From the NCBI GenBank assembly GCA_009380075.1, contig WHSO01000035.1:1-34269 (forward strand): a DNA stretch of 34,269 nucleotides, in the 5' to 3' direction. The translations under genes were made by a program, and so were the position numbers. Below are positions 2,301 to 18,255 of this stretch, one piece after another; positions within the stretch are counted from its first letter, which is position 1, and every line of letters begins with the position of its first letter. The notes below the pieces were generated by a model. It saw only the letters and a list, made by a program, of their open reading frames with translations. It ran no database searches and was not told where the DNA came from. The stretch is from Alphaproteobacteria bacterium. Its GTDB lineage: Bacteria; Pseudomonadota; Alphaproteobacteria; SMXQ01.

Positions 2301-3350
2301 TCAGACGGCGGGGAATTCCTCGTAGAAGCCGAGCTTGCGCTGCAGCGGCGCGTCGTCGACGACGAACAGGAACAGCGGATTCTTGCCGGACCGGTTGGCG
2401 ACGGCGACATTGGCGTGGGTCGGCAGGACGAAGGTGTCGTTCTCGCCGAAGACGAGGGCCGTTCCGTCCACGTCGGCCTCGCCCTCGCCCTCGATCACAT
2501 GGACGACGGCGGAGCACGACCGGCGCGCCGTCCTCACGGTTTCGCCGGGCCGCACCATGAAGGCCGAGAACCCCAGCACCGGCAGGCACTCCAACCCGGT
2601 TTCGGGATTGACGTAGGCGAGCCACACCGGCTCCCCCGCCGGCACGTCCTGGGCGAGCGCCAGGAGGGATTCCCGCACCTCGACCCATGGGTAGCGCGTC
2701 AGCGGATAGGGCGCCCGCGCGCGGCCGAGGGAGGCGTAGGGCACCAGCCCCGCCCGCCGGTAACGGGTCTGGGACGAGTCGGGTGCATTGCGCAGCGGCT
2801 GGGACGCCCCTTCGACGCTGTAGGAGGCCTCGAGGTAATAGACCAGCGGCAAGTCGAGAGCGTCCATCCAGATCACCGGCCCCTTCCCTTCATGGCCGTG
2901 CTCGTGCCACATGCCCGACGGCGTAAGGATCAGGTCGCCCTTGTCCATCGGGCATTTTTCGCCCTGCACCGTGGTAAAGCCGCCGCTGCCCTCGACCACG
3001 CAGCGGATGGCCGACGGCGTGTGTTTGTGGTTGGGCGCGGTTTCGCCCGGGTTGATGAGCTGCATGCCGATGTAGATGCTGGGCGTGGCCATCATGTTGG
3101 ACAGGCCGAGGCCGGGATTGGCCAGCGCCAGCACCCGCCGCTCGGCCTTTTCGATCGGGGTGAGCTCGCCCGCCTTCAGCAGAAGCGGCCGGACGTCATC
3201 GTAGCGCCACAGCACCGGTTCCGACCGCCGGATCGGCTTGCCCGGCGGCACCTTCGCCCGCAGGTTGGGCCAGAGCGGCAGCAGGTTGTGACTGGTCAGG
3301 TCGTCCCGATAATCCTGGGGCAGTTCTTCGAGTGTGCCGAGTTCGGCCAT
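2301..3350 (-). CDS. Gentisate 1,2-dioxygenase-like bicupin ring-cleavage enzyme
   Basis: A 349-residue bicupin with the length and layout of gentisate 1,2-dioxygenase and 1-hydroxy-2-naphthoate dioxygenase. The N-terminal cupin has the iron motif in [10 protein letters not shown] (His108, His110), followed by GSG and a second motif [12 protein letters not shown] that supplies His149. The C-terminal cupin (about 240-340) is less well endowed with ligands, as is usual in this family. The family uses Fe(II) to open gentisate or salicylate-type rings between carboxyl- and hydroxyl-bearing carbons. A textbook ribosome site, AGGAGG five bases before the ATG, fixes the start. It lies between the aldolase gene (16-bp gap) and the Rieske alpha gene. 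Maleylpyruvate isomerase and hydrolase genes, needed to finish a gentisate route, are not in the window. Confidence 0.88.
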
Positions 3351-5790: not shown

Positions 5791-7062
5791 ATGAAATCCG
5801 TCCGCGTCAGCCTGATCGCCGCCACCGCCGTCGCCGGTGGCCTCGTCGTTGGCCCTGCCTCGGCCCAGTCGGTCGAGGCGTTCTACAAGGGCAAGGTCAT
5901 GAACCTCTATGTCGGCTCGGCCCCGGGCGGCGGCTACGACACCTACGGCCGCTCCGTCGCCCGCCATATCGGCGACCATATCCCCGGCAACCCCAGCATC
6001 GTGGTCAAGAACATGCCGGGCGCCAGCGGATTGCGCCTCGCCGGCTACATGTACAACGCGGCGAACAAGAGCGGCATCGAAATCGCCGGCATTCACAACA
6101 CCGCCGTCGTCGACCAGCTTCTCGGCAGCAAGGTGCAGTTCGACGCACGCAAGTTCAACTGGCTCGGCAGCGCCAACCAGCTCACCTCCACCTGCGTCGC
6201 ACGGGCGAGCACCGGCATCACGACAATCAAACAGGCGATGGAGAAGGAGCTTCTGGTCGGCGCCACCGGCGCGTCGAGCTCCTCCACCCAGCTCGTCGCC
6301 GCCTTCATGAACAGCCTGACCGGCACCAAGTTCAAGATCATCAAGGGCTATCCCAGCACCTCGTCGGTCTTCCTCGCCATGGAGCGCGGCGAGGTCGGCG
6401 GCCTCTGCGGCATCGGCTGGGACAGCCTGCAGGCCCAGGTGCTGGGGGAGATCAAGGCCGGCAAGATCGTCATCCTGGTCCAGACCGGGACGGTGAAGAA
6501 CCCGGATATCAAGGACGTGCCGCTGGTCCTCGACCTCGCCCGCAATCCGACCGACCGCACGGTGCTGGAGTTCCTGGTGGCACGCCAGTACATGGGCCGG
6601 CCCTACGTCGCGCCGCCGGGCGCCCCGGCGGACCGGGTCGCCGCGCTGCGGGCCGCCTTCATGACGACGATGAACGACCCCGGATTCAAGGCCACGGCGA
6701 AGAAGTCCCGGGTGCCGCTGTCGCCCATTACCGGCCAGCAAGTGCAGGACCACGTCACCAAGCTGTTCGCCATGCCCAGGAGCATCATCGACCGCGCCAA
6801 TGCGGCGACCCAGGTCAACCCCGCCGCCGTCGCCGAAGCGAAGCTCACGTGGAAGACGGCCAAAGGGGCCACCATCGGCGGCGTGAAGAAGCGCAAGCTC
6901 CAGTTCACCGACGGCGGCAAGAAAGTCACCGCCGACCTGTCGGGCACCAGCATCATGGTCAAGGGCAAGAAGGCCAAGCGCAACGCGCTCAAGGCCGGCA
7001 TGGTCTGCGACATCACCTACCTCGGCGACGGCGACGCCGCCGGGAAGGTCACCTGTAATTAA
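5791..7062 (+). CDS. TTT-type (Bug/TctC family) solute-binding protein with extra C-terminal domain
   Basis: A 423-residue exported protein. Residues 1-25 form a signal peptide ending ASAQ. The mature part has Bug/TctC landmarks: SAPGGGYDTYGRSVARH after the first strand, then KNMPGASGLRLAGYMY. Typical members have about 320-330 residues; this one continues for about 70 more. The extra tail (about 350-423) is rich in Lys and beta-strand-like, and ends AKRNALKAGMVCDITYLGDG and VTCN. The binding protein at 14,167-15,489 has a very similar tail. The gene is alone on the plus strand, divergent from the M20-Rieske operon, so its ligand may be that operon's carboxylated substrate; this is inference. 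No TctA/TctB genes adjoin it, so it may share the fused permease at 15,713. Confidence 0.86.
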   Translation: MKSVRVSLIAATAVAGGLVVGPASAQSVEAFYKGKVMNLYVGSAPGGGYDTYGRSVARHIGDHIPGNPSIVVKNMPGASGLRLAGYMYNAANKSGIEIAGIHNTAVVDQLLGSKVQFDARKFNWLGSANQLTSTCVARASTGITTIKQAMEKELLVGATGASSSSTQLVAAFMNSLTGTKFKIIKGYPSTSSVFLAMERGEVGGLCGIGWDSLQAQVLGEIKAGKIVILVQTGTVKNPDIKDVPLVLDLARNPTDRTVLEFLVARQYMGRPYVAPPGAPADRVAALRAAFMTTMNDPGFKATAKKSRVPLSPITGQQVQDHVTKLFAMPRSIIDRANAATQVNPAAVAEAKLTWKTAKGATIGGVKKRKLQFTDGGKKVTADLSGTSIMVKGKKAKRNALKAGMVCDITYLGDGDAAGKVTCN

Positions 7063-7150: not shown

Positions 7151-8338
7151 CTATTGCGCGAAGGACTCCAGCAGTTCCACCGGATCGCCGTAGCGGCGGG
7201 CGGCCGCGACCACCTTCTCATCACGTAGAGACATCAGAAAACCATTGTCGATCAACGTGGTATTGCCGAGCTTTACAGTGGTGTCGAAGGTCACGAAATC
7301 CATGTGGATGTGGGGCTCTTCCCAGTTGGGGATGGCGCGGCGGAGGTATTCGCTCTCCTTCACGGCGTTGCAGCCGAAGTGCAGCCCGCCTGGCGAATTG
7401 GGCCCGGCCGGATAGACCTGGAACCGCGGCGCCTTGGGGTTGAAGCCGCAGCCGAGCTCGTTCAGCCGGGCGCCGATCAGGTATTCGCGCAGCGCGTCCG
7501 CCTCGCGCCCGTTGCCATGGATTTTCACGATGAAGTCGTCCTTGAACTCGACCCCGATCTTCTCCTCGAAGGGTCGCGGAAAGCCGACCGCCCACTGGGG
7601 GTAGACGATGCCCTCCATCTCGGCATGGGCGCCGGGCTCGCGCCGGTGAGCGGTGGCACCGTAGAGATTGGGGCCGTGGGTCGGCAGGTAATGGACGTAG
7701 CAGCCGGGCGCATCAGCGGTGTTGATCCCCTTCCAGCGGGTGATGCCGAGGAGGTTCTCGGTCATCTGCGGGGTGAATTTGATGTTGAGGTCGGAGCCGC
7801 GCGGGTCGGTGAAGCGCATGTCGAAGGCAGCGCCGCGCGGGTAGCTGCGCGCGGTGGCGCGGATGATCTCGCCCACCAGGTCGACGGGGAAGCGGGCCTG
7901 GGGCGTGTCCAGCAGGTCGAGGTCGCGGAAGAAGGTGATCTTGACCCAGCGCTGGCCCTTCTCGCGCCGCATCGTGTTGGCGAAGGGGCAGCCGGTCGAG
8001 GCGAACCACGTGGACACCACGAAGTCGCTGTCCTCGACCAAAGGCCGCGCTTCGGCCGGGATTTCGGTGTTGCGGGTGGAATGCCACATGAATTCGCGCA
8101 CCGTTGCGCCGTTGGCCCGGGCGATGCCGGAGATGGCATCGACGACGCGCCGGTCGAGCCTCGGGTCGGTCAGGAAGGCCACTTTCTCGTCGGCGCGGAT
8201 GGCGAAGACGCGGTTCATGTTGGCGATCGCCTGGAAGCGGTTGCGCAATCGCGTCGATTCGGTGACCGTTTCGGACGGCATGGCGGAGGCTGTAGACGAC
8301 GCAAGGATGTCGTCCCGGGTCGGTGGAACGTGGCTCAT
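7151..8338 (-). CDS. NicX/M29-like enzyme (2,5-dihydroxypyridine dioxygenase or aminopeptidase T-type)
   Basis: A 395-residue protein. KVAFLTDPRLDRRVVDAI near residue 52 followed by ANGATVREF matches the N-terminal domain shared by M29 aminopeptidases and NicX, the Fe(II) 2,5-dihydroxypyridine 5,6-dioxygenase. Near the C-terminus HFGCN (His320) and EEPHIHMDF (His343, His345, Asp347) supply a plausible His/His/Asp metal site as in NicX. The N-terminal 30 residues are poorly conserved in character. The ribosome site is GAGGA about nine bases before the ATG. It is divergent from an operon of other likely non-haem iron enzymes, so an oxygenase role fits better than a peptidase role, but the substrate is unknown. 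The gene ends at a clear terminator and appears monocistronic. Confidence 0.68.
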   Translation of the reverse strand: MSHVPPTRDDILASSTASAMPSETVTESTRLRNRFQAIANMNRVFAIRADEKVAFLTDPRLDRRVVDAISGIARANGATVREFMWHSTRNTEIPAEARPLVEDSDFVVSTWFASTGCPFANTMRREKGQRWVKITFFRDLDLLDTPQARFPVDLVGEIIRATARSYPRGAAFDMRFTDPRGSDLNIKFTPQMTENLLGITRWKGINTADAPGCYVHYLPTHGPNLYGATAHRREPGAHAEMEGIVYPQWAVGFPRPFEEKIGVEFKDDFIVKIHGNGREADALREYLIGARLNELGCGFNPKAPRFQVYPAGPNSPGGLHFGCNAVKESEYLRRAIPNWEEPHIHMDFVTFDTTVKLGNTTLIDNGFLMSLRDEKVVAAARRYGDPVELLESFAQ

Positions 8339-8806: not shown

Positions 8807-9547
8807 ATGGCCACCGCGATCGACATGTCGAAGTACAAAAAGGATTTCTATGCCGAGGTCCGGCGACTGGCCAACGCGCAGTTCGAGAGCCCGCAGTACC
8901 GGCACCTCCTCAACATCCCGCTCAACCAGAAGCGGGCCCAGGTCTACGTCCTGCAGAAGGGATTCTGGAACCTCAACCGCCGCGACTGCTGGGCCTTCGC
9001 GCAAGGATTGGCGCCCATGGACGTCAAGGCGCTGATCTGGGAGCACGAGCTCGACGAGCTCCAGGGCAACGAGGCGCGGGGCGTCGAGGACCACTATTCC
9101 CTGCAGGTGCGCCAGTCCGCGACCATCGGCCTGACCCGCGCCGACTTCGAGAAGGAAGTCATGCGCGATGAAACCCGCGGCATCATCTACGCCTACATCC
9201 ACCTGGACAAGGACACGCCGTGGCTCTATTCGGTGGCGACCTGTGCCGCCCTCGAAGTCTCCAACTCGTCGGACTGGGTCGACGGCGGCGGCATGTCCTA
9301 CCGCTGGGGCAAGAAGCAGGAAAAGGATCTCGGCATCCCCTTCCACAAGCAGCTCAATGCCGCGGAACACGCCGAGGTGGACGTCGAGCACGGCAACCTG
9401 CTGGTCAAGGTCGTCGAACGCCATGTCGACACCTCGGCCAAGTTCGACCAGATCCTCGACGGGCTGAACGAGGCCTGGGCGCTCGACCGCGCCTGGAAGG
9501 GCATCCTCGCGGGCTACCTCGAAGCCGTCCCCTACACCGCAAAGTAG
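8807..9547 (+). CDS. Haem-oxygenase-fold iron oxidase (HDO/TenA-PqqC-like)
   Basis: A 246-residue, largely helical protein of the TenA/PqqC/HDO superfamily. Likely iron-binding positions are Glu79/Glu81 in WEHELDE, His96 in EDHYSL, His180, and Asp192-x2-His195 in EVDVEH. This E...H...H...DxxH spacing resembles diiron HDO enzymes such as UndA, SznF and CADD, rather than the cofactor-free PqqC. HDOs use oxygen to cleave or hydroxylate amino acids, fatty acids or amines. The start has AAGGAG seven bases upstream. It is the first gene of an operon with three bicupin genes (20 bp to the next) and probably acts in one pathway with them. The substrate is not recognisable. Confidence 0.75.
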   Translation: MATAIDMSKYKKDFYAEVRRLANAQFESPQYRHLLNIPLNQKRAQVYVLQKGFWNLNRRDCWAFAQGLAPMDVKALIWEHELDELQGNEARGVEDHYSLQVRQSATIGLTRADFEKEVMRDETRGIIYAYIHLDKDTPWLYSVATCAALEVSNSSDWVDGGGMSYRWGKKQEKDLGIPFHKQLNAAEHAEVDVEHGNLLVKVVERHVDTSAKFDQILDGLNEAWALDRAWKGILAGYLEAVPYTAK

Positions 9548-9566
9548 GCGCGGGACCGCACATCGA

Positions 9567-10682
9567 ATGGCGCTGACGACCGACCGGGAACGCAAGTTCC
9601 TGCTCGACCCCTACCTCGACTTCGCGCGTGGCGAAGGCGTGCCGGTGGTCGAGGGTTTCGCCATCGACCTCACGGCGATGGAGACGGCACCGTGGGACCG
9701 CTTCGGCCTCCGCGGCGCCTTCGCGCACCTCGCCGGCCGCGGCGACTTCGTCGCGGTCCAGTGCCTGGAGCTGCCGCCGGGGGCCGTCGGCGCGCCGATG
9801 CGGCACCTGTATGACGAGGTATTCTACGTGCTCGCCGGGCACGGGTCGCTCAAGCTGACCCTGCCGGACGGACGCGAACATACGTTCGAATGGGGGCCGC
9901 GGTCGGTGTTCTCGCCGCCGCTCAACTGCGAATACCGCCTCTACAACGGCTCCGGCCGCGAGCCTGCGCGGCTCGCCTCGGGCAACAACCTGCCGCTGAT
10001 GATGAACGTCTTCCACAACGAGGACTTCATCTTCAACTGCCCCTACCCCTTCGTCGACCGCGCAGGCGACGCGTCGTGGTACGAGGGCGAAGGGCGGATG
10101 ATCGAGCTCAAGCCCGGCTCCCACATGTGGGAAACCAACTTCATCCCCGACCTCGCCGCCTTCGCGCTGAAGGAATGGGAGGCGCGCGGCGCCGGCTCGA
10201 AGAACCTGAAGCTGATCCTCGCCGACAGCGTCATGCACGCGCACACCTCGGAGATGGCGGTGGGTACCTACAAGAAGGGCCACAAGCACGGCCCCGGCGC
10301 CCATGTCTTTGCCGTCACCGGCGAGGGGTTTTCCATCCTGTGGAACGAGGGCGATGCGGATTTCGTCCGCCACGAATGGCGCCACGGCTGGGTCTTCGCG
10401 CCGCCCGATCAGATGTTCCACCAGCACTTCAACACCGCGGCCGATCCAGCGCGCTATCTCGCGGTGTCCCTGGGTTCCCACCGCTATCCGGTGACTTCGG
10501 TCAAGCGCAAGCGCAAGTCCGACGCGCTCAAGAGCGCCAAGGACGGCGGCTACCAGATCGAGTACGAGGACCAGGATCCGCGCATACATCCCATGTTCCT
10601 GAGGGAAATCGCCCGGAACGGGGTACAATCGCGCATGGGCAGGTATTTCGACGAAACCGCCATCGCGGCGGATGCAGGCTAG
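9567..10682 (+). CDS. Bicupin protein, paralog 1 of 3
   Basis: A 371-residue protein with two cupin barrels. The N-terminal barrel looks metal-free: the usual HxH is M78-R-H80 and the second-motif His is replaced (PPLNCEYRLYN). The C-terminal barrel keeps a full site: KKGHKHGPGAH gives His239, His241 and His246, and MFHQHFN gives His285 and Asn289. The tail carries QIEYEDQDPRIH (330-341), then GVQSRMG and FDE, shared with both neighbours. Size and bicupin layout resemble gentisate-type dioxygenases, with the active site moved to the C-terminal half. It starts 19 bases after the HDO gene and ends 22 bases before paralog 2. An Fe- or Mn-dependent oxygenase or isomerase is the best guess; the family has no function known to me. 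Confidence 0.72.
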   Translation: MALTTDRERKFLLDPYLDFARGEGVPVVEGFAIDLTAMETAPWDRFGLRGAFAHLAGRGDFVAVQCLELPPGAVGAPMRHLYDEVFYVLAGHGSLKLTLPDGREHTFEWGPRSVFSPPLNCEYRLYNGSGREPARLASGNNLPLMMNVFHNEDFIFNCPYPFVDRAGDASWYEGEGRMIELKPGSHMWETNFIPDLAAFALKEWEARGAGSKNLKLILADSVMHAHTSEMAVGTYKKGHKHGPGAHVFAVTGEGFSILWNEGDADFVRHEWRHGWVFAPPDQMFHQHFNTAADPARYLAVSLGSHRYPVTSVKRKRKSDALKSAKDGGYQIEYEDQDPRIHPMFLREIARNGVQSRMGRYFDETAIAADAG

Positions 10683-10704
10683 ACCCGCCAACCGGGGAGA
10701 ACCG

Positions 10705-11856
10705 ATGAGTAGCACGAAGCTGACGCCGCAGGACCTGGAGCAGTACCGGCGCGACCGCGTCTTGGTAGACCCCTATCTCGAATGGGCCGCGGACGAAGGC
10801 GTCCCGGTGATCGAGGATTTCGGCGTCGATCTCCTCGCCGCGGAGACGAAGGCCTGGGCGCGCTTCGGCTGCAACGGCGCCATCGTCAACCTGAAGGGGC
10901 GCGGCAACTACTGCTCGACGTTCCTGTTCAACCTGCCGCCGGGGGGATCCACCGCGCCCCAGAAGCATCTCTACGAGGACGTCTACTACGTGCTCTCGGG
11001 CCACGGCTCGACCCAGGTGCAGACGGCGGACGGCCGCACCCACAGTTTCGAATGGGGCCCCAAGAGCCTGTTCGCCCTGCCCCTCAACGCGCCCTACCGG
11101 CTGTTCAACGGGTCGGGAACGGAACCGGCGCGCCTCGCCTCCACCAACAATGCCGGCATGGTCCTCAACCTCTATCACGACACGGATTTCGTCTTCGACA
11201 ATCCGGAGTGGTTCAGCGACCGAGAGCAGGACGAATCGCGCTATTTCGGCGAGGGAGAAATGACCCCCATCCGCCCCGGCCGCGTGCTGTGGGACACCAA
11301 CTTCGTGCCCGACCTGTCAGCCTTCGAGGTCAAGCCCTGGGAAGCGCGCGGCAAGGGATCGGGCAACATGCAGTTCATCCTCGCCGACGGCGTGATGGGC
11401 GCGCATGTGTCGGAGATGCCGGTCGGCACCTACAAGAAAGGCCACCGCCACGGCGCCGGGCTGCACATCTTCCTGGTCCACGGCGAGGGCTATTCGCTTC
11501 TGTGGTACGCCGGCGACAAGGACTTCGTCCGGGTGGACTGGCGCCACGGCATGCTGTTCGCGCCGCCCGACGGCATGTTCCACCAGCATTTCGACACCAG
11601 CGCGCAGCCGGCGCGTTACCTCGCGGTCGGCCTCGGCTCCAAGCGCTATCCCGTGATCTACATGCGGCGCGCGGGCTCCGAGAACAACCGGTCCGACGTA
11701 TCGCTGAAGGAAGGCGGCCGCCAGATCGAGTACGAGGACCAGGACCCGCGCATCCACGCGCTGTGGCTCAGGGAGATCCGGCGCACCGGGGTCGAGAGCC
11801 GGATGGGCGACGTCTTCGACGAGGACGCGATCCTCAAGCAGATTCCGGCGGAGTAA
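10705..11856 (+). CDS. Bicupin protein, paralog 2 of 3
   Basis: A 383-residue bicupin clearly homologous over its full length to both neighbours. The N-terminal barrel again lacks a complete site (Q-K-H instead of HxH, then PLNAPYRLFN). The C-terminal barrel has YKKGHRHGAGLH and MFHQHFD; the last residue of the second motif is Asp where paralogs 1 and 3 have Asn. The conserved QIEYEDQDPRIH tail, GVESRMG and FDED follow. The open frame allows a start at 10,672 inside paralog 1, but the ATG at 10,705 is preceded by GGGGAG and makes better family sense. It ends 6 bases before paralog 3, so the genes are surely co-transcribed. It may have diverged in substrate or form a mixed oligomer with its neighbours. 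Confidence 0.72.
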   Translation: MSSTKLTPQDLEQYRRDRVLVDPYLEWAADEGVPVIEDFGVDLLAAETKAWARFGCNGAIVNLKGRGNYCSTFLFNLPPGGSTAPQKHLYEDVYYVLSGHGSTQVQTADGRTHSFEWGPKSLFALPLNAPYRLFNGSGTEPARLASTNNAGMVLNLYHDTDFVFDNPEWFSDREQDESRYFGEGEMTPIRPGRVLWDTNFVPDLSAFEVKPWEARGKGSGNMQFILADGVMGAHVSEMPVGTYKKGHRHGAGLHIFLVHGEGYSLLWYAGDKDFVRVDWRHGMLFAPPDGMFHQHFDTSAQPARYLAVGLGSKRYPVIYMRRAGSENNRSDVSLKEGGRQIEYEDQDPRIHALWLREIRRTGVESRMGDVFDEDAILKQIPAE

Positions 11857-11862
11857 CCGACG

Positions 11863-13011
11863 ATGAGCGATTTCCTCGAAGGCAAAAAATCCAATGCCGA
11901 AATGCGCTACCTGGTCGATCCCTACATGGATTGGCTGGCGGGCGAAGGCATTCCGGTCCACGACGATTTCTGCGTCGACCTGCATGCCCTGACGGTCGGC
12001 CCATGGCCCCGCTTCGGCATGAACGGGGCGGCGGCGCACCTCAAGGGCCGGGGCGATTTCATCTCCATCTTCCTCTACGAGATTCCGCCCGGGGCCAAGA
12101 GCGCGCCGGTCCAGCACCTGTTCGAGGAAGTGATGCTGGTGATCGAGGGCCACGGCTCGGCCACCATCGAAAGCCACGACGGCAGGAAGCACAGTTTCGA
12201 ATGGGGGCCCAATTCCATCTTCGCCATCCCGCTGAACGCACGCTACCAACTGTTCAACGGCTCGGGCTCGGAACGCGCCCGCCTCGCCTCCACCAATACC
12301 CTGCCGGTGACCATGAACCTGTTCCACCGGGAAAGCTTCATCTTCGACAATACACGCCGCTTTCCCGCGCGCGAGGGCCGCGGCGACCCCGGCTGGTTCG
12401 CCGGCGAAGGCGAATTCGTCCCGGCCCAGCGCGGCCGCCAGATGTGGGAGGCGAATTTCATCCCCGACGTCAACTCCTTCGAGCTACGCAAGTGGAATTC
12501 GCGCGGCGCCGGATCGTCCAATATCCAGTTCTGCATGGCTGACGGCGTCGTCCACACGCACACCTCGGAAATGGGCGTCGGCACCTACAAGAAGGGCCAC
12601 CGCCATTCCCCCGACTTCCACGTGCATATCGTCTCGGGCCACGGCTATTCGCTGTTCTGGTACGGGGGCGAGAAGGATTTTCGCCGCTTCGACTGGGCCC
12701 ACGGCTCGGTGTTCGCGCCGCCGGACCTGATCTTCCACCAGCACTTCAACACCTCGAACGTCCCGGTGCGCTATTTCGCCACGGCGATGGGCTCCACCCG
12801 CTATCCGTTCTCGGCGGAAAAGCGTGCCATCAAGCTCGGCGTCGACGTCTCGGTCAAGGAGGACGGCGGCTTCCAGATCGAATATGAGGACCAGGACCCG
12901 CGCATCCACCGCATGTTCCTGGACGAGCTGGCGAAAAACGGCGTCGAGTGCCACATGGGCGAGTTCATGGACGAAGCCGTCCTCACCCGGCGCATGGCCA
13001 AGAGCGCCTGA
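11863..13011 (+). CDS. Bicupin protein, paralog 3 of 3
   Basis: A 382-residue bicupin, last gene of the HDO-bicupin operon. The N-terminal barrel reads V-Q-H in place of HxH and IPLNARYQLFN in place of the second motif, so it is again unlikely to bind metal. The C-terminal barrel has YKKGHRHSPDFH and IFHQHFN, with the His residues complete. The tail QIEYEDQDPRIH, GVECHMG and MDE matches the paralogs. The start ATG has only a weak GGAG upstream, at the end of paralog 2, which points to translational coupling. A hairpin follows at 13,039. Keeping three diverged copies together suggests separate steps or subunits rather than dosage; that is inference. Confidence 0.72.
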   Translation: MSDFLEGKKSNAEMRYLVDPYMDWLAGEGIPVHDDFCVDLHALTVGPWPRFGMNGAAAHLKGRGDFISIFLYEIPPGAKSAPVQHLFEEVMLVIEGHGSATIESHDGRKHSFEWGPNSIFAIPLNARYQLFNGSGSERARLASTNTLPVTMNLFHRESFIFDNTRRFPAREGRGDPGWFAGEGEFVPAQRGRQMWEANFIPDVNSFELRKWNSRGAGSSNIQFCMADGVVHTHTSEMGVGTYKKGHRHSPDFHVHIVSGHGYSLFWYGGEKDFRRFDWAHGSVFAPPDLIFHQHFNTSNVPVRYFATAMGSTRYPFSAEKRAIKLGVDVSVKEDGGFQIEYEDQDPRIHRMFLDELAKNGVECHMGEFMDEAVLTRRMAKSA

Positions 13012-13038
13012 GCGCCCGGCCCCACCCATGAAAACAGG

Positions 13039-13070
13039 AAGGGCGGCACCCGGAAACGGGTGCCACCCTT
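13039..13070. terminator. Hairpin terminator between convergent genes
   Basis: AAGGGCGGCACCCG and CGGGTGCCACCCTT form a 14-base stem with one mismatch around a GAAA loop. It lies 28 bases after the third bicupin gene and 24 bases beyond the end of the minus-strand gene at 13,095. T-tracts are weak on both sides, so it is assigned as a shared stem for two converging transcripts. Confidence 0.7.
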
Positions 13071-13094
13071 CGTACTTCACGGTCAGACCCGAAC

Positions 13095-14084
13095 TCAGCC
13101 GCCGATGTTGAGCATCTTCGGCTGTTCCTTGTAGAGGCCGCGGACGAAGCCCGAATCGTCGATCTCGCGCAGGAAGTGGAAGTTCCACAGCGCCAGCGGA
13201 TGGATTCTCGCCGCGTCACCGTTCTTTTCGTCCTGCTTGAGGGCTTCCTGATAGACGTTGCTGACGGCGTCGATGCCCGGATAGAGGTTGGGCTCCAGCA
13301 CCGGGGCCAAGTCGTCGTACAGGATTTCCGCGGTCGCGCGGTCGAGCTTGCCTTCCTTGGTGTGCTTGTCCATCAGGATCTGCACGGTCTTTTCGCGGTT
13401 CTGCTTGAAGAACGCGATGCCCTCGATCATTGCCTTGAGGTTGCGGGTGATGATGTCGGGATGGTTGTCGACCATGTACTTGCTTGACGACAGGGTCATG
13501 AAGAAGACCATCGGCTGCGGCGGGATATCGATGATCTTGAGGCCGTTGCGGCTGACGAATTCGAGCCGCGGCTGGGTCATGAAGCAGGCGTCGATGTCGC
13601 CTTCCATCAGCATCTGCTCGAGGCTCTTGCGGTTGACCTGCTTTTCGCCGTCGGGCAGTTCGACGCGGGCCTCGCGCACGATCTCGACCTGATCGGTGTC
13701 GGGGTTGAGCCCGTTCTGCTTCAGGTACAGCCAGGTGTTGAGGCCGGGGTGGCGGCCGCGCGAGCCGAACCGGCGCTTGCGCACGTCCTCCAGCTTCTCG
13801 ATCCCGGTGTCGGGGCGCGTCACCAGCTTGATGTTGTTCTTGCTGACGGTCTGGCCGAGGTAGACCCAGGTGTCGCCACGGGCGCGCGCGGCGTAGGTGG
13901 AGACGTGGTTGCCCGAGACGAACTCGATCTCGCCGGTGGGTACCAGCTTGTGAGCGTCCTCACGGCCGATGATCTTGTCGTATTCGACCGACAGGCCGTT
14001 GCGTTCCCATGCGCCCGATTCCTGGATGACGTGCATCAGGGCGAGGTGGCTCGAGGAACGGTAGGGGAAATGGATATGGTCCAA
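13095..14084 (-). CDS. NMT1/SsuA-like periplasmic-binding-fold protein, TTG start
   Basis: A 329-residue protein with the type II binding-protein layout of NitT/TauT/NMT1 families: SHLALMHVIQESGAWERNGL at the start, GEIEFVSGNHVSTYAARARG in the middle of lobe one, and MLMEGDIDACFMTQP in lobe two. The start is TTG at 14,084, preceded by AGGAGG with nine bases between; no ATG gives a better N-terminus. There is no signal peptide, so the protein is probably cytoplasmic or a catalytic relative, as 4,5-dihydroxyphthalate decarboxylase and thiamin-precursor synthases of this fold are. No ABC permease or ATPase gene is near. It lies 82 bases after the TctC-like gene and is probably the last gene of the transport operon. 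Confidence 0.7.
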   Translation of the reverse strand: MDHIHFPYRSSSHLALMHVIQESGAWERNGLSVEYDKIIGREDAHKLVPTGEIEFVSGNHVSTYAARARGDTWVYLGQTVSKNNIKLVTRPDTGIEKLEDVRKRRFGSRGRHPGLNTWLYLKQNGLNPDTDQVEIVREARVELPDGEKQVNRKSLEQMLMEGDIDACFMTQPRLEFVSRNGLKIIDIPPQPMVFFMTLSSSKYMVDNHPDIITRNLKAMIEGIAFFKQNREKTVQILMDKHTKEGKLDRATAEILYDDLAPVLEPNLYPGIDAVSNVYQEALKQDEKNGDAARIHPLALWNFHFLREIDDSGFVRGLYKEQPKMLNIGG

Positions 14085-14166: not shown

Positions 14167-15489
14167 CTACTTGCACTTCACTTCGGTGACTTCGGCGCCC
14201 TCGCCCATGTAGGTGATCTCGCAGGCCATGCCGGCCTTGAGCGCACCGCGCTTGGCTTCCTTGCCGCCGACATTGACCTTCGTGCGGCTGCCGGAGACCT
14301 TGGACTTGAACGCCTTGCCGTCGGCCTTGTAATGCAGGATGCGGCCATCGTTCTCGACCTTGTCGAGGCTGGCGTTGACGGTCTTCAGGCCGCCGCGCTC
14401 CTTGGCCAGTTTCGCCATCGCCTCATCCGACAGCGGCTCGCCCGGCAGACCGTGACGGACAGCCATGTCGTGCAGATAGGTGAAGATCTTGGCATCCGGG
14501 TAAGCCGTCGCACCGACAAGTTCGATGACGTCCTGCGCCGTCTGCGGTGAGAAGTCCTCGCTGAACTGCAGCCTGGCGAACTTGAGGAACTCCGGATCCT
14601 TCACAACCTTGCCATAGGCCGTGCGGTAGGTCTCGACGATGTCCTTCGAGGTGCCCGGGGGTAGCGCATACCACTTGTCGATCTGGTTGGTCTTGACCCA
14701 GAAATTGAACGCCTGCAGCGCGTCGCCCTTGAGCTTGCCCTTCATCAGGTCCGGCATCACCGGAACCTTGGGGAAGGAGATGCGGGGCACGATCTTGCCC
14801 TCGGCCGCTTCGCCCAGTTGCACGTAGCCCTCGAACTCCCCGGTCTTGGCCAGGTTCCGGTGCATGCTGATGGACGAAGTCCCGAAGGCGTCGATCTCGC
14901 CGCGGCGGGCAGCGAGCGTCAGCGCCGGGGCGCCAGGATAGCCGATGACGAACTTGATGTTCCAGCCGAGCACGTCCTTGCCCCACAGCATCATCTGGCC
15001 CCAACTGCGGCTGCCGTCCACGGCACCGATGACTGTCGGCGGCTTGGACTTGTCGGTGACGTTGGGGAACTTCTCCTTGCGCATGGTGACCACGGAGCCA
15101 CCACGCGCGACGCCGCCGATGAACTCGAACTCAGTCGGGTTGTACTCCACCACCGACTTGCGGAGGTTGTTGGAGTCGACGTAGGAGCTCGACCCGCCGG
15201 TCCATGTCGAGCCATCCTTCTTGGCGACCTTGGAGAAGTAATTCATCGCCTGCACGCCGTGGCCGGCGGGCATGTTGCGATAGACGATATTCGGCTTGCC
15301 CGGCAGGTACTTTTCGAGGTACCGGCCGACCAGGCGCGTCGTGCCGTCGGTGCCGCCGCCCGGTGAGGAGCCGATGAGGGCGTCGAGGCGTTTGCCCTTG
15401 AAATTGACCTCCGCCGCCGCAGCGGGGGTCAGCGCGGTGGCCCCGATCAGGCCAACCCCGAGGAAAAGAACAGTCACATTGCGAATCAT
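14167..15489 (-). CDS. TTT solute-binding protein (TctC-like) with extra C-terminal domain
   Basis: A 440-residue exported protein with a signal peptide ending TPAAAAE near residue 26. The Bug/TctC landmark SSPGGGTDGTTRLVGRYLEK and NMPAGHGVQAMNYF are clear. The protein is about 110 residues longer than standard members. The last 65 residues form a lysine-rich module ending AKRGALKAGMACEITYMGEG and VKCK, near-identical in pattern to the tail of the 5,791-7,062 protein. The gene follows the fused TctA-TctB permease gene by 223 bp on the same strand, so the two should form one TTT system for a carboxylated compound. GGAG precedes the ATG by seven bases. The ligand may be an aromatic or tricarboxylic acid of the divergent gal-like pathway. 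Confidence 0.87.
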   Translation of the reverse strand: MIRNVTVLFLGVGLIGATALTPAAAAEVNFKGKRLDALIGSSPGGGTDGTTRLVGRYLEKYLPGKPNIVYRNMPAGHGVQAMNYFSKVAKKDGSTWTGGSSSYVDSNNLRKSVVEYNPTEFEFIGGVARGGSVVTMRKEKFPNVTDKSKPPTVIGAVDGSRSWGQMMLWGKDVLGWNIKFVIGYPGAPALTLAARRGEIDAFGTSSISMHRNLAKTGEFEGYVQLGEAAEGKIVPRISFPKVPVMPDLMKGKLKGDALQAFNFWVKTNQIDKWYALPPGTSKDIVETYRTAYGKVVKDPEFLKFARLQFSEDFSPQTAQDVIELVGATAYPDAKIFTYLHDMAVRHGLPGEPLSDEAMAKLAKERGGLKTVNASLDKVENDGRILHYKADGKAFKSKVSGSRTKVNVGGKEAKRGALKAGMACEITYMGEGAEVTEVKCK

Positions 15490-15712: not shown

Positions 15713-17701
15713 TTAGCCGAAAAGACTTTCCACCCACAGATAGAGATCGGGCAGCAGCAGCGGATTCGGCCAGACCACCGAAATTACCGTGTCGAACAAG
15801 CCGATCAGGATCGCCTCCGCGATCACGCCGAGGGTCAGCGCCAGCCGCCAGCCGCCGCCATAGATCCGGCAGTAGGCGACGGGGACGATCAGGAAGCTGA
15901 TGTGGAAGCCGAGAAGGACGATCAGCGCCAGGATGGCGGCGATCCAGCCCGCCGCCTCGAAGTAATAGCGTGTCACCTTGCTGCCGGTGACCGGCGCGTC
16001 GGCGGCGCCCGGGTTGCGCCAGTAGCGCCACCCGTCGACCGACAGTTGCAGCACCGCCAGAAAGATGCCGACGCCGGTGACGAAAAACACGTCGAGCGAC
16101 GCGCGCGGTGGCCACACCAGCGCCGACGCCAGGGCGTAGATCATCGCCGCGAGGAACAACAGCGTGAACACGACGCCGCCCAGCGACTGCATCTTGGGCT
16201 GGTCTTCCTCCAAGTAGTAATCCATCGACATTTTGGCGGATTTCCGGTTCTTCCACATCGGCAGAAAGATCGTCCCGACGATCACCAGGAATATGACGAT
16301 GACGCCGGGGAACAGCATCCAGTCCAGGAAATAGCGGTCGACGCTGAGCCACAGGTAGGTCTGCAACTGCGGCCCTAGGACCACCGCGACCAGCACCGGC
16401 GGACGCGGCCAGCCGTAGCGGCGCATGAAAAACCCGACGAACGACATGCCGACCAGAGCCACGAGGTCAGCGTAGGTGAAATTCACCCCATAGGCGGCGG
16501 CGATGGTGAAGATCAGGGTCATCGGCACGATGATGTAGTACGGCAGGATCGACACCTTGGCGAAGGTGTTGGCGAGGCCCATGGACAGCCCCGTCGCCAG
16601 GATGTTCGACAGCACCACGACAGCGATCATGGCGAAGATGAGGTGCTTGCTGCCGCTGATCATCGGTTCGCCCGGCACGATGCCGACCGCGGCGAAGGCG
16701 ACCAGCACCAACGCCATCGAGGTCGAACCGGGGATGCCGAAGAACATGGTCGGGATCAGCGCACCGCCTTCCTTGGCGTTGTTAGAACTTTCCGGCGCGA
16801 TGACGCCGCGCACGTCGCCCTTGCCGAAGTTTTCCGTGTTCTTTTCCGTCTGCGCCGCATGGGCGTAGGCGAACCAGTCCGCCACCGAGGAACCGAGCCC
16901 CGGGAGGATGCCGATCCACACGCCGATGATCGAACAGCGGATCACCAGCCACCAGTTCTTGAAGGTGTCCTTCACTCCCTGCCACAGGCCGCTGCCCAGA
17001 GTGCCGGTCTGGGAGATCGAAGACCGCCGCACCGAAAGGTCGATCAGTTCGGGAACGCCGAACAGGCCGAGGCCGATGATGGCGACATGGATGCCGTCCC
17101 ACAGGTAGTAGTCGCCGAAAGTGAAGCGTTCGATGCCGGTGCGGGTCTCGGTCCCGATCAGCGCAAGCCCGAGGCCAAAGGCCGCCGCCATCAGCCCCTT
17201 GATTGGCGTGTTGCCGGACAGGATACCGACCGCCGACAGGCCCCACAGCACCAGCATCAGCAGTTCGGGCGAGCCCAGCAGCAGCACCAGCGGCGTCACG
17301 ATCGGCAGCGCCGCGAGAAACACCGCACCGCCGATCAGCCCGCCCAGCAGCGACGACATATAGGCGGCGCCGAAGGCGCGGTTGGCCTCGCCCTTGCGGG
17401 CCATGGGATGACCGTCGACGATGGTGGCCTGGGACCCGGCGCCCCCCGGCACCGCGATCAGGACCGACGGAAACGTATTGGCGGTGTTGGAGATGATGGT
17501 GATGCCGAACAGGAGCGCGATGCATTCCATCGGCTGCAGGGTCATCGCGTAGGGCAGCGACATGGCGAGGAGGGTCGAGGACCCCACCCCCGGCATGGCC
17601 GCGAATATGGACGACGCGATGACCGCGACGGTCATCAGGATAAGGGGCTTGGTCTGCAGGATTCCGGAGAATCCCTGCGCGATGACATCCCAGTCGTACA
17701 T
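15713..17701 (-). CDS. tctA: TTT transporter permease, TctA-TctB fusion
   Basis: A 662-residue membrane protein. Residues 1 to about 500 are TctA: MPGVGSSTLLAMSLPYAMTL, NTANTFPSVLIAVPGGAGSQ, and the second-half repeats GILPGLGSSVADW, ESSNNAKEGGALIPTM and FGIPGSTSMALVL. After a hydrophilic linker (about 505-525, rich in Lys, Asp and Glu) come about four more membrane segments with the pattern of TctB (DUF1468), normally a separate protein of about 150 residues. The long frame could start at 17,989, but the upstream part is not protein-like and the ATG at 17,701 has GGGGGAAGA just before it. Together with the TctC-like gene downstream it makes a complete two-gene TTT uptake system. Confidence 0.88.
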   Translation of the reverse strand: MYDWDVIAQGFSGILQTKPLILMTVAVIASSIFAAMPGVGSSTLLAMSLPYAMTLQPMECIALLFGITIISNTANTFPSVLIAVPGGAGSQATIVDGHPMARKGEANRAFGAAYMSSLLGGLIGGAVFLAALPIVTPLVLLLGSPELLMLVLWGLSAVGILSGNTPIKGLMAAAFGLGLALIGTETRTGIERFTFGDYYLWDGIHVAIIGLGLFGVPELIDLSVRRSSISQTGTLGSGLWQGVKDTFKNWWLVIRCSIIGVWIGILPGLGSSVADWFAYAHAAQTEKNTENFGKGDVRGVIAPESSNNAKEGGALIPTMFFGIPGSTSMALVLVAFAAVGIVPGEPMISGSKHLIFAMIAVVVLSNILATGLSMGLANTFAKVSILPYYIIVPMTLIFTIAAAYGVNFTYADLVALVGMSFVGFFMRRYGWPRPPVLVAVVLGPQLQTYLWLSVDRYFLDWMLFPGVIVIFLVIVGTIFLPMWKNRKSAKMSMDYYLEEDQPKMQSLGGVVFTLLFLAAMIYALASALVWPPRASLDVFFVTGVGIFLAVLQLSVDGWRYWRNPGAADAPVTGSKVTRYYFEAAGWIAAILALIVLLGFHISFLIVPVAYCRIYGGGWRLALTLGVIAEAILIGLFDTVISVVWPNPLLLPDLYLWVESLFG

Positions 17702-18255
17702 TCTTCCCCCTTTTGGCTCGCGCCTTGTCCTCCTGCTGGCGAGGACGTGAGTCTCCGATGGTTGGACGTGATTCGCGGTCGATGAGCAGTTTTTGTGCTG
17801 TCGGTGCCTGCAGGACAAAATCGAACTTGCACACTTTTGCCACGAGGCCGGGATGGCGTCCCAGTGCCGTGCCAAGTGCGTCCGTTTCGGCGCGGGCAGC
17901 GTCGATTCCGTCGAGAATGTGCTGGAATGTGACGGCCGGAATGGCCACTGGTGACATGGCCACTGGTGACAGAGCCACCTCGCCGCCAAGCGGTCCCTTC
18001 TCCATTACGCCGGCCACGGTTTTCTGCCTGCCTGTTGTTTCTTCTTCGGCTGCCGGCGATGCCGCAACCGCCTTTCGATGATTGAAAATCATTTCACAGG
18101 TTGGAATGCGAAGCAACCACGGCACGTTCAACCATTACCAGCACTCATGCTACCGTTGAAAGAGGCTTTGGATCGCAATGGCCTGAACCCGCGGCAACTT
18201 GGGCCTTTCCCGCGCCCGATAATGGGACGAAAATCGGCCCCCGACGGAGGTTGAG
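17702..18255. other. 554-bp divergent intergenic region
   Basis: The gap lies between the TTT permease gene and the galD-like gene, and must hold promoters for both. It has a 15-base perfect tandem repeat (17,941-17,970). A minus-strand frame through 17,720-18,131 gives a moderately protein-like string including ILDGIDAARAETDALGTAL, but it has no ribosome site, runs into the permease gene out of frame and is not called. I recognise no gene here. Confidence 0.4.
17941..17970. repeat. Two tandem copies of ATGGCCACTGGTGAC
   Basis: Two exact 15-base copies abut each other. Each junction also forms the imperfect inverted repeat GGCCA...TGGCC. Position in the middle of a divergent promoter region suits paired sites for a regulator, but a chance slippage repeat cannot be excluded. 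Confidence 0.55.

Follow-up and report, generated by a model that had tools for sequence, protein, structure and literature searches.

The window analyzed here is a stretch of 34,269 nucleotides (contig C81; GenBank WHSO01000035.1, positions 1 to 34,269) from an alphaproteobacterial draft genome of 3.54 Mb in 162 contigs, which is 97% complete. It carries three tandem genes for bicupin proteins, led by a gene for a heme-oxygenase-like diiron oxygenase (HDO). A preliminary description of this DNA, made from the sequence alone, had reported the three tandem bicupins, and their open frames on the plus strand were confirmed; it had overlooked the HDO gene at the head of the operon, an association with EutA-family ATPases and the breadth of the family.

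8807-9547, plus strand: HDO, first gene of the operon, assigned by PF14518, structural model and ligand pattern
9567-10682, plus strand: bicupin copy 1 (H224 type), open frame of 371 amino acids
10705-11856, plus strand: bicupin copy 2 (G224 type), 383 amino acids (394 from the alternative start at 10672)
11863-13011, plus strand: bicupin copy 3 (H224, D244 type), open frame of 382 amino acids

Position 10705, which is preceded by GGGGAGAACCG, is the likely start of copy 2 rather than 10672. All genes lie on the same strand with gaps of 19 bases between the HDO gene and copy 1, 22 bases between copies 1 and 2, and six bases between copies 2 and 3, and we infer that the four genes (8807-13011) form one co-transcribed operon. 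A terminator-like hairpin of 15 pairs (13038-13071, minus strand) is located between the bicupin array and a convergent NMT1-like gene. Copy 1 shares 58% identity with copy 2 and 53% with copy 3. The ratio of nonsynonymous to synonymous substitution rates (dN/dS) relative to locus L031, from an alphaproteobacterial metagenome-assembled genome that gave the closest named match (89% identity), was 0.10-0.12 in all four genes. Such purifying selection argues for the use of all copies and, together with the separate clades described below, rules out that copies 2 and 3 arose by a recent duplication or are decaying.

No family of its own names these bicupins in Pfam or NCBIfam, both of which were scanned, and no characterised homolog was found in the libraries and literature searched. 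Nevertheless, one scan found the family encoded at 278 places, with recurrent tandem arrays. The best 80 of these places gave the 79 distinct loci used below, which are the closest relatives and not a random sample. From them, 126 homologs were aligned after exclusion of fragments (profile start >25, profile end <325, or <100 bits); the 13 with less than 40% identity to copy 1 were tallied separately from the 113 with at least 40%. The source genome has at least 13 matches to the family. Copy numbers per genome are lower bounds, since the scan behind this figure seems to score no more than 13 matches per genome and the class-wide scan no more than five. The same draft (G000, 3.5 Mb) contains 73 Cupin_2 matches. 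One in-frame TGA each was found in the bicupin matches G000:C6:28652-29731, G001:C56:32879-33955 and G114:C9:101602-102687, which are either decayed copies or errors.

The metal sites of the two barrels are preserved very differently. At the first-barrel HxH position, copies 1, 2 and 3 read M-R-H, Q-K-H and V-Q-H, and Tyr stands in place of the motif-2 His in all three. The second barrel is complete in every copy (H239-x-H241, H246 and H285-Q-H287 in copy 1 numbering), as the preliminary description had claimed. The same picture extends to the homologs: the first N-barrel ligand position (78) is His in none of the 126 full-length sequences, and position 123 is Tyr or another residue in most of them, while H226, H239, H241, H285 and H287 of the second barrel are kept in 113 of the 113 homologs with at least 40% identity, and H246 in 97 of these. 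No carboxylate is conserved at the second-barrel Glu position; the conserved residues in the homolog alignment are His. An internal yardstick for this comparison is encoded in the window itself:

2301-3350, minus strand: gentisate-dioxygenase-like bicupin (TIGR02272 257.8 bits, below the cut-off of 442.1 bits)

The second barrel of copies 1 to 3 aligns with the first-barrel motif of this protein. Taken together, the alignments support a metal site in the second barrel and a degenerate first barrel. Since gentisate and salicylate dioxygenases carry their active iron in the N-terminal cupin according to PMC4019311, the earlier phrase "the reverse of gentisate dioxygenases" is a fair one.

The model of copy 1 has a bicupin fold with a predicted local distance difference test (pLDDT) score of 94. 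By VIA-align, salicylate and gentisate dioxygenases are closest (Z 21) and oxalate decarboxylases follow at 20, while Foldseek ranks an oxalate decarboxylase first, so that the chemistry cannot be read from the predicted fold alone. These structural scores would be consistent with a metal-dependent decarboxylase, isomerase or hydrolase of the oxalate-decarboxylase kind rather than an oxygenase. Such an enzyme could also use the His found where the usual motif has Glu, which permits up to four His ligands. However, a profile of 53 bicupins has its best match in gentisate dioxygenase 3bu7 (E 5e-10), with the second barrel placed on HRH and HEH, and reaches oxalate decarboxylases only at E 0.58 and 1. 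The HDO partner and the Rieske neighbours at some loci also indicate aerobic oxidation. We therefore consider a non-oxygenase improbable. Oxalate decarboxylases have metal sites in both cupins, and the first barrel here lacks two His ligands. Nor are the proteins classed as gentisate dioxygenases: in addition to the N-barrel feature, the family score fails, with no match of copy 1 to TIGR02272 and only 12.1 and 14.5 bits for copies 2 and 3 (cut-off 442.1 bits). They are consequently filed as a new variant of cupin metalloenzymes.

All three copies share the tail QIEYEDQDPRIH, with coordinates counted from the translations:

10554-10589, plus strand: tail of copy 1 (residues 330-341)
11722-11757, plus strand: tail of copy 2
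12874-12909, plus strand: tail of copy 3

The tail is an extension outside the cupin folds, as had been described, because it lies after the last barrel strand (295-302) in the confident model of copy 1 and alignments to gentisate and salicylate dioxygenases mostly end at residues 330-335. Its 12 residues are identical in the three copies, and no other stretch in their three-way alignment is identical over such a length; the barrels have 46 of 93 and 45 of 91 identical columns. The further claim that the tail is more conserved than the barrels holds on average, with mean majority fractions over the 126 homologs of 0.83 for the tail and 0.70 and 0.72 for the barrels, although the tail value is inflated since the loci were gathered partly by the tail pattern QIEYEDQ. 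It does not hold against the metal motif: among 360 twelve-residue windows the tail ranks 11th, and second-barrel residues 230-241 rank first. Copies of the own genome that were chosen without the tail pattern have tail variants such as QIEYENQEPQIH.

To place the three copies, a tree of the 126 sequences was built by a quick method with Shimodaira-Hasegawa-like approximate likelihood ratio test (SH-aLRT) support. Copies 1, 2 and 3 fall into three clades of 5, 7 and 9 rows (support 99, 98 and 98), each of which contains the same-order copy from L031, L032 and L033. Loci L046, L047 and L053 carry copy-2 and copy-3 types, L053 being ended by the end of its contig. Judged from this tree, the three copies are old orthologous groups that have been conserved separately with their order kept. 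Residue 224 follows the pattern H-G-H in the window, L031, L032, L033, L080 and on contig C125 of the own genome, and H-G-G-H in L059 and L073, so that all eight core-family arrays of three or more show one of the two. A second array of the own genome on contig C162 (L117, 7676-11194) encodes three more distant bicupins of 35-39% identity and reads A-G-A at this residue; it adjoins a Rieske oxygenase and a class II aldolase gene and has neither HDO nor EutA.

The preliminary description had taken the three diverged copies to point to sequential reactions or a heteromeric enzyme. At nine loci (L064, L070, L074, L076, L083, L086, L088, L091 and L097), an intact bicupin has a tandem partner without the second-barrel HxH, reading R/Q/K/H-x-Q instead. 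These nine partners form one clade in the tree, and none of the nine loci has an adjacent same-strand EutA gene. The HxH-less partner is a candidate pseudo-enzyme subunit, and the loss of its motif would be explained more easily by a subunit than by a second enzymatic step. Together with the old, ordered paralogs, these partners favour the heteromer over sequential steps, which partly supports the earlier proposal. Instead, each bicupin could work separately as a homomeric enzyme, catalyzing one of several consecutive steps or acting on its own substrate within a single pathway, with co-transcription of the HDO gene. The full second-barrel site in all three copies of the window, group-specific fixed residues at 11 positions and the frequent single bicupins elsewhere would agree with this. 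We nonetheless regard separate enzymes as rather unlikely, given the nine pairs of an intact copy with an HxH-less partner and the fixed H-G-H order in core arrays of three or more, which resembles a set of fixed subunit types.

We also analyzed the first gene of the operon. Its PF14518 match (27.6 bits) is under the gathering cut-off of 28.9, and a PDB sequence search gave no match. The model (pLDDT 89) predicts a helical heme-oxygenase-like fold, with VIA-align Z scores of 21.4 for Chlamydia CADD (2.5 Å over 206 residues), 20.4 for BesC, 19.6 for HrmI and 17.7 for UndA. The ligand pattern E84, H96, E150, H188, D192 and H195 is invariant in seven homologs and presents the set of three His and three carboxylates of the HDO family, E84 and H96 being assigned by alignment only. 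In a tally with a single profile combining both HDO subfamilies, an HDO gene was located directly upstream of bicupins in 8 of the 79 loci. These comprise five of six arrays of three or more, 3 of 28 pairs (L046, L047 and L057) and none of 51 singles; the three matches of L039, which are two genes with one split by a frame change, were entered as a pair. The window array and the C125 array are likewise HDO-led. A homolog of the window HDO was found in 10 of 13 genomes searched, and eight of the best 10 matches lie just upstream of a bicupin among the matches listed, while those at G001:C21 and G000:C97 have no bicupin among these matches.

Clustering of neighbour genes revealed that a EutA-family ATPase gene adjoins the bicupins. 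In 42 of the 79 loci the two genes share a strand and are no more than 500 bases apart, with frames that often overlap. On a plasmid of Phyllobacterium zundukense, the order is TctABC, a thiamine diphosphate (ThDP) enzyme, an oxidoreductase, the bicupin ("hypothetical protein"), EutA and LysR, the gene beside the bicupin being annotated as a EutA-type ethanolamine ammonia-lyase reactivase. Among 385 genomes of the window's class, a bicupin was found in 12 and EutA in 11, all of them among the 12; the twelfth is 70% complete, and EutA was found in none of the 373 genomes without a bicupin. Another class was sampled with 247 genomes around that of L109 (titled Actinobacteria); here both genes occur side by side in the same two genomes, with EutA in none of the other 245. 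EutB was missing from all 13 bicupin genomes of one test set and from 19 of the 20 in a second (32 of 33 overall). The EutA homolog of L108 scores below the NCBI EutA equivalog cut-offs. No description of a link between EutA and bicupins was found in the literature searched.

The own genome encodes two full-length EutA proteins (C125 and C160, PF06277 401-408 bits). On C125, an HDO gene, three bicupin genes and EutA form one array, followed by a further protein and by major facilitator superfamily (MFS) transporters; the former is 59% identical to an L039 protein that matches 4,5-dihydroxyphthalate decarboxylase 9jp7 at 7e-71. The window array has no EutA gene nearby, so that any EutA it needs must be encoded elsewhere. 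With two EutA genes against at least 13 bicupin matches, the own genome would be easier to reconcile with a helper shared among bicupins than with a subunit of fixed stoichiometry. By analogy with HyuA-type ASKHA enzymes, bicupin and EutA might alternatively be one ATP-dependent enzyme with EutA as the catalytic subunit. Adjacent, often overlapping frames, the strict genome-level co-occurrence and glycine-rich, ASKHA-like motifs kept in 44 EutA homologs are in line with such an enzyme. The numbers in the own genome are, however, unsuited to a stoichiometric subunit, and many other loci resemble the window in lacking a nearby EutA, making a joint enzyme quite unlikely. His-rich C-terminal tails with 7 to 14 His occur in 6 of the 44 EutA homologs (L035, L036, L045, L052, L054 and L065), which suggests metal handling.

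As clues to the substrate, the neighbours across loci include TctC/TctA uptake proteins, 4,5-dihydroxyphthalate decarboxylase, UbiD, class III CoA-transferase, class II aldolase and LigXa-type Rieske proteins, which points to aromatic or related carboxylates and to no single compound. Downstream of the array in the window lies the following gene:

13095-14084, minus strand: convergent neighbour with an NMT1/THI5-like binding-protein fold (PF09084 46.8 bits)

This neighbour recurs near arrays at seven loci (cluster 14). A clear 4,5-dihydroxyphthalate decarboxylase was rejected for it, the score being 28.9 bits only. A protein of 395 amino acids at 7151-8338 (minus strand) had no match in Pfam, NCBIfam or PDB sequences at the thresholds used, and is also present in L031 (cluster 80). 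The frame at 14167-15489 (minus strand) encodes a long TctC-like protein that has no Pfam match itself and clusters with the TctC-like protein at 5791-7062. Next to it, 15713-17989 (minus strand) is a large open frame for a membrane protein, whose cluster (cluster 5) includes other frames located beside bicupins.

We propose that the bicupins form a heteromeric, metal oxygenase-like complex that works jointly with the HDO to convert an aromatic or heterocyclic carboxylate, with EutA helping in trans; we assign this reading a probability of about 0.4. Each bicupin would bind one metal ion, probably Fe(II), in the second barrel via H239, H241 and H285, with H246 and H287 nearby, and the first barrel would be structural or close the pocket. 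Most probably, the three copies would come together in a hetero-oligomer, with small differences between the pockets of its subunits. This complex may catalyze an O2-dependent cleavage or rearrangement of the carboxylate, which the HDO would oxygenate before or after the bicupin step. An ATPase of the EutA family, encoded at another place in the genome, would maintain bicupin activity through metal loading or reactivation.

Several observations weigh against this proposal. Single bicupins at many loci indicate that a heteromer is not required for function everywhere, and L073 has four bicupin copies and no HDO. EutA is missing from the surroundings of the window array, and the fetched stretch contains none at 36 of the 79 loci, some stretches being short. 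P-values for the co-occurrence of the two genes are too strong, as genomes sharing them are related by ancestry. Finally, oxalate decarboxylases are nearly equal to dioxygenases by fold score and come first by Foldseek.

A wider reading, offered tentatively, is that many EutA-family ATPases in genomes without EutB may be dedicated maturation or reactivation factors of second-barrel bicupins rather than B12-enzyme reactivases; the most elaborate bicupin form would then be a hetero-oligomer of three distinct copies working with an HDO. If true, this would give a testable function to a family that is encoded at hundreds of places and has no name in Pfam or NCBIfam, and the annotation as EutA would be mistaken in most such genomes. 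To our knowledge, no ATP-dependent helper for a non-heme cupin enzyme is known so far.

Compared with known systems, the present bicupins share their fold with oxalate decarboxylases (1uw8, 5vg3, 2vqa; Z about 20), from which they differ in the lack of a metal site in one barrel and in the poor profile scores given above. With gentisate and salicylate 1,2-dioxygenases (TIGR02272; 3bu7, 2phd, 4fag) they have both the fold and an alignable HxH...H motif in common, but here the active motif is in the second barrel, the first is degenerate and a conserved tail is added. A second-barrel active site is not unique to them, since PMC4019311 places that of the bicupin homogentisate dioxygenase in the C-terminal cupin as well; that site is a 2-His-1-carboxylate one, whereas His occupies the aligned positions in the second barrel described here. 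The EutA proteins match the ethanolamine ammonia-lyase reactivase family (PF06277) at full length and far above cut-off in bicupin genomes, and differ from it in that EutB, the known client, is almost always absent and the link is to bicupins instead. The HDO gene of the operon has the predicted fold and the six-ligand pattern of the HDO family, to which CADD, BesC, HrmI, UndA and SznF belong. According to PMC13108848 and PMC11705231, SznF is an HDO-cupin fusion whose HDO domain works with the cupin domain, and its H-x3-D-x2-H spacing (PMC11705231) is that of the window HDO. Here, by comparison, the HDO is paired with three separate bicupins, and the setting is one of carboxylate catabolism and not of natural-product synthesis; if our reading is correct, the HDO-cupin partnership that SznF uses in N-N bond synthesis would extend into catabolism.

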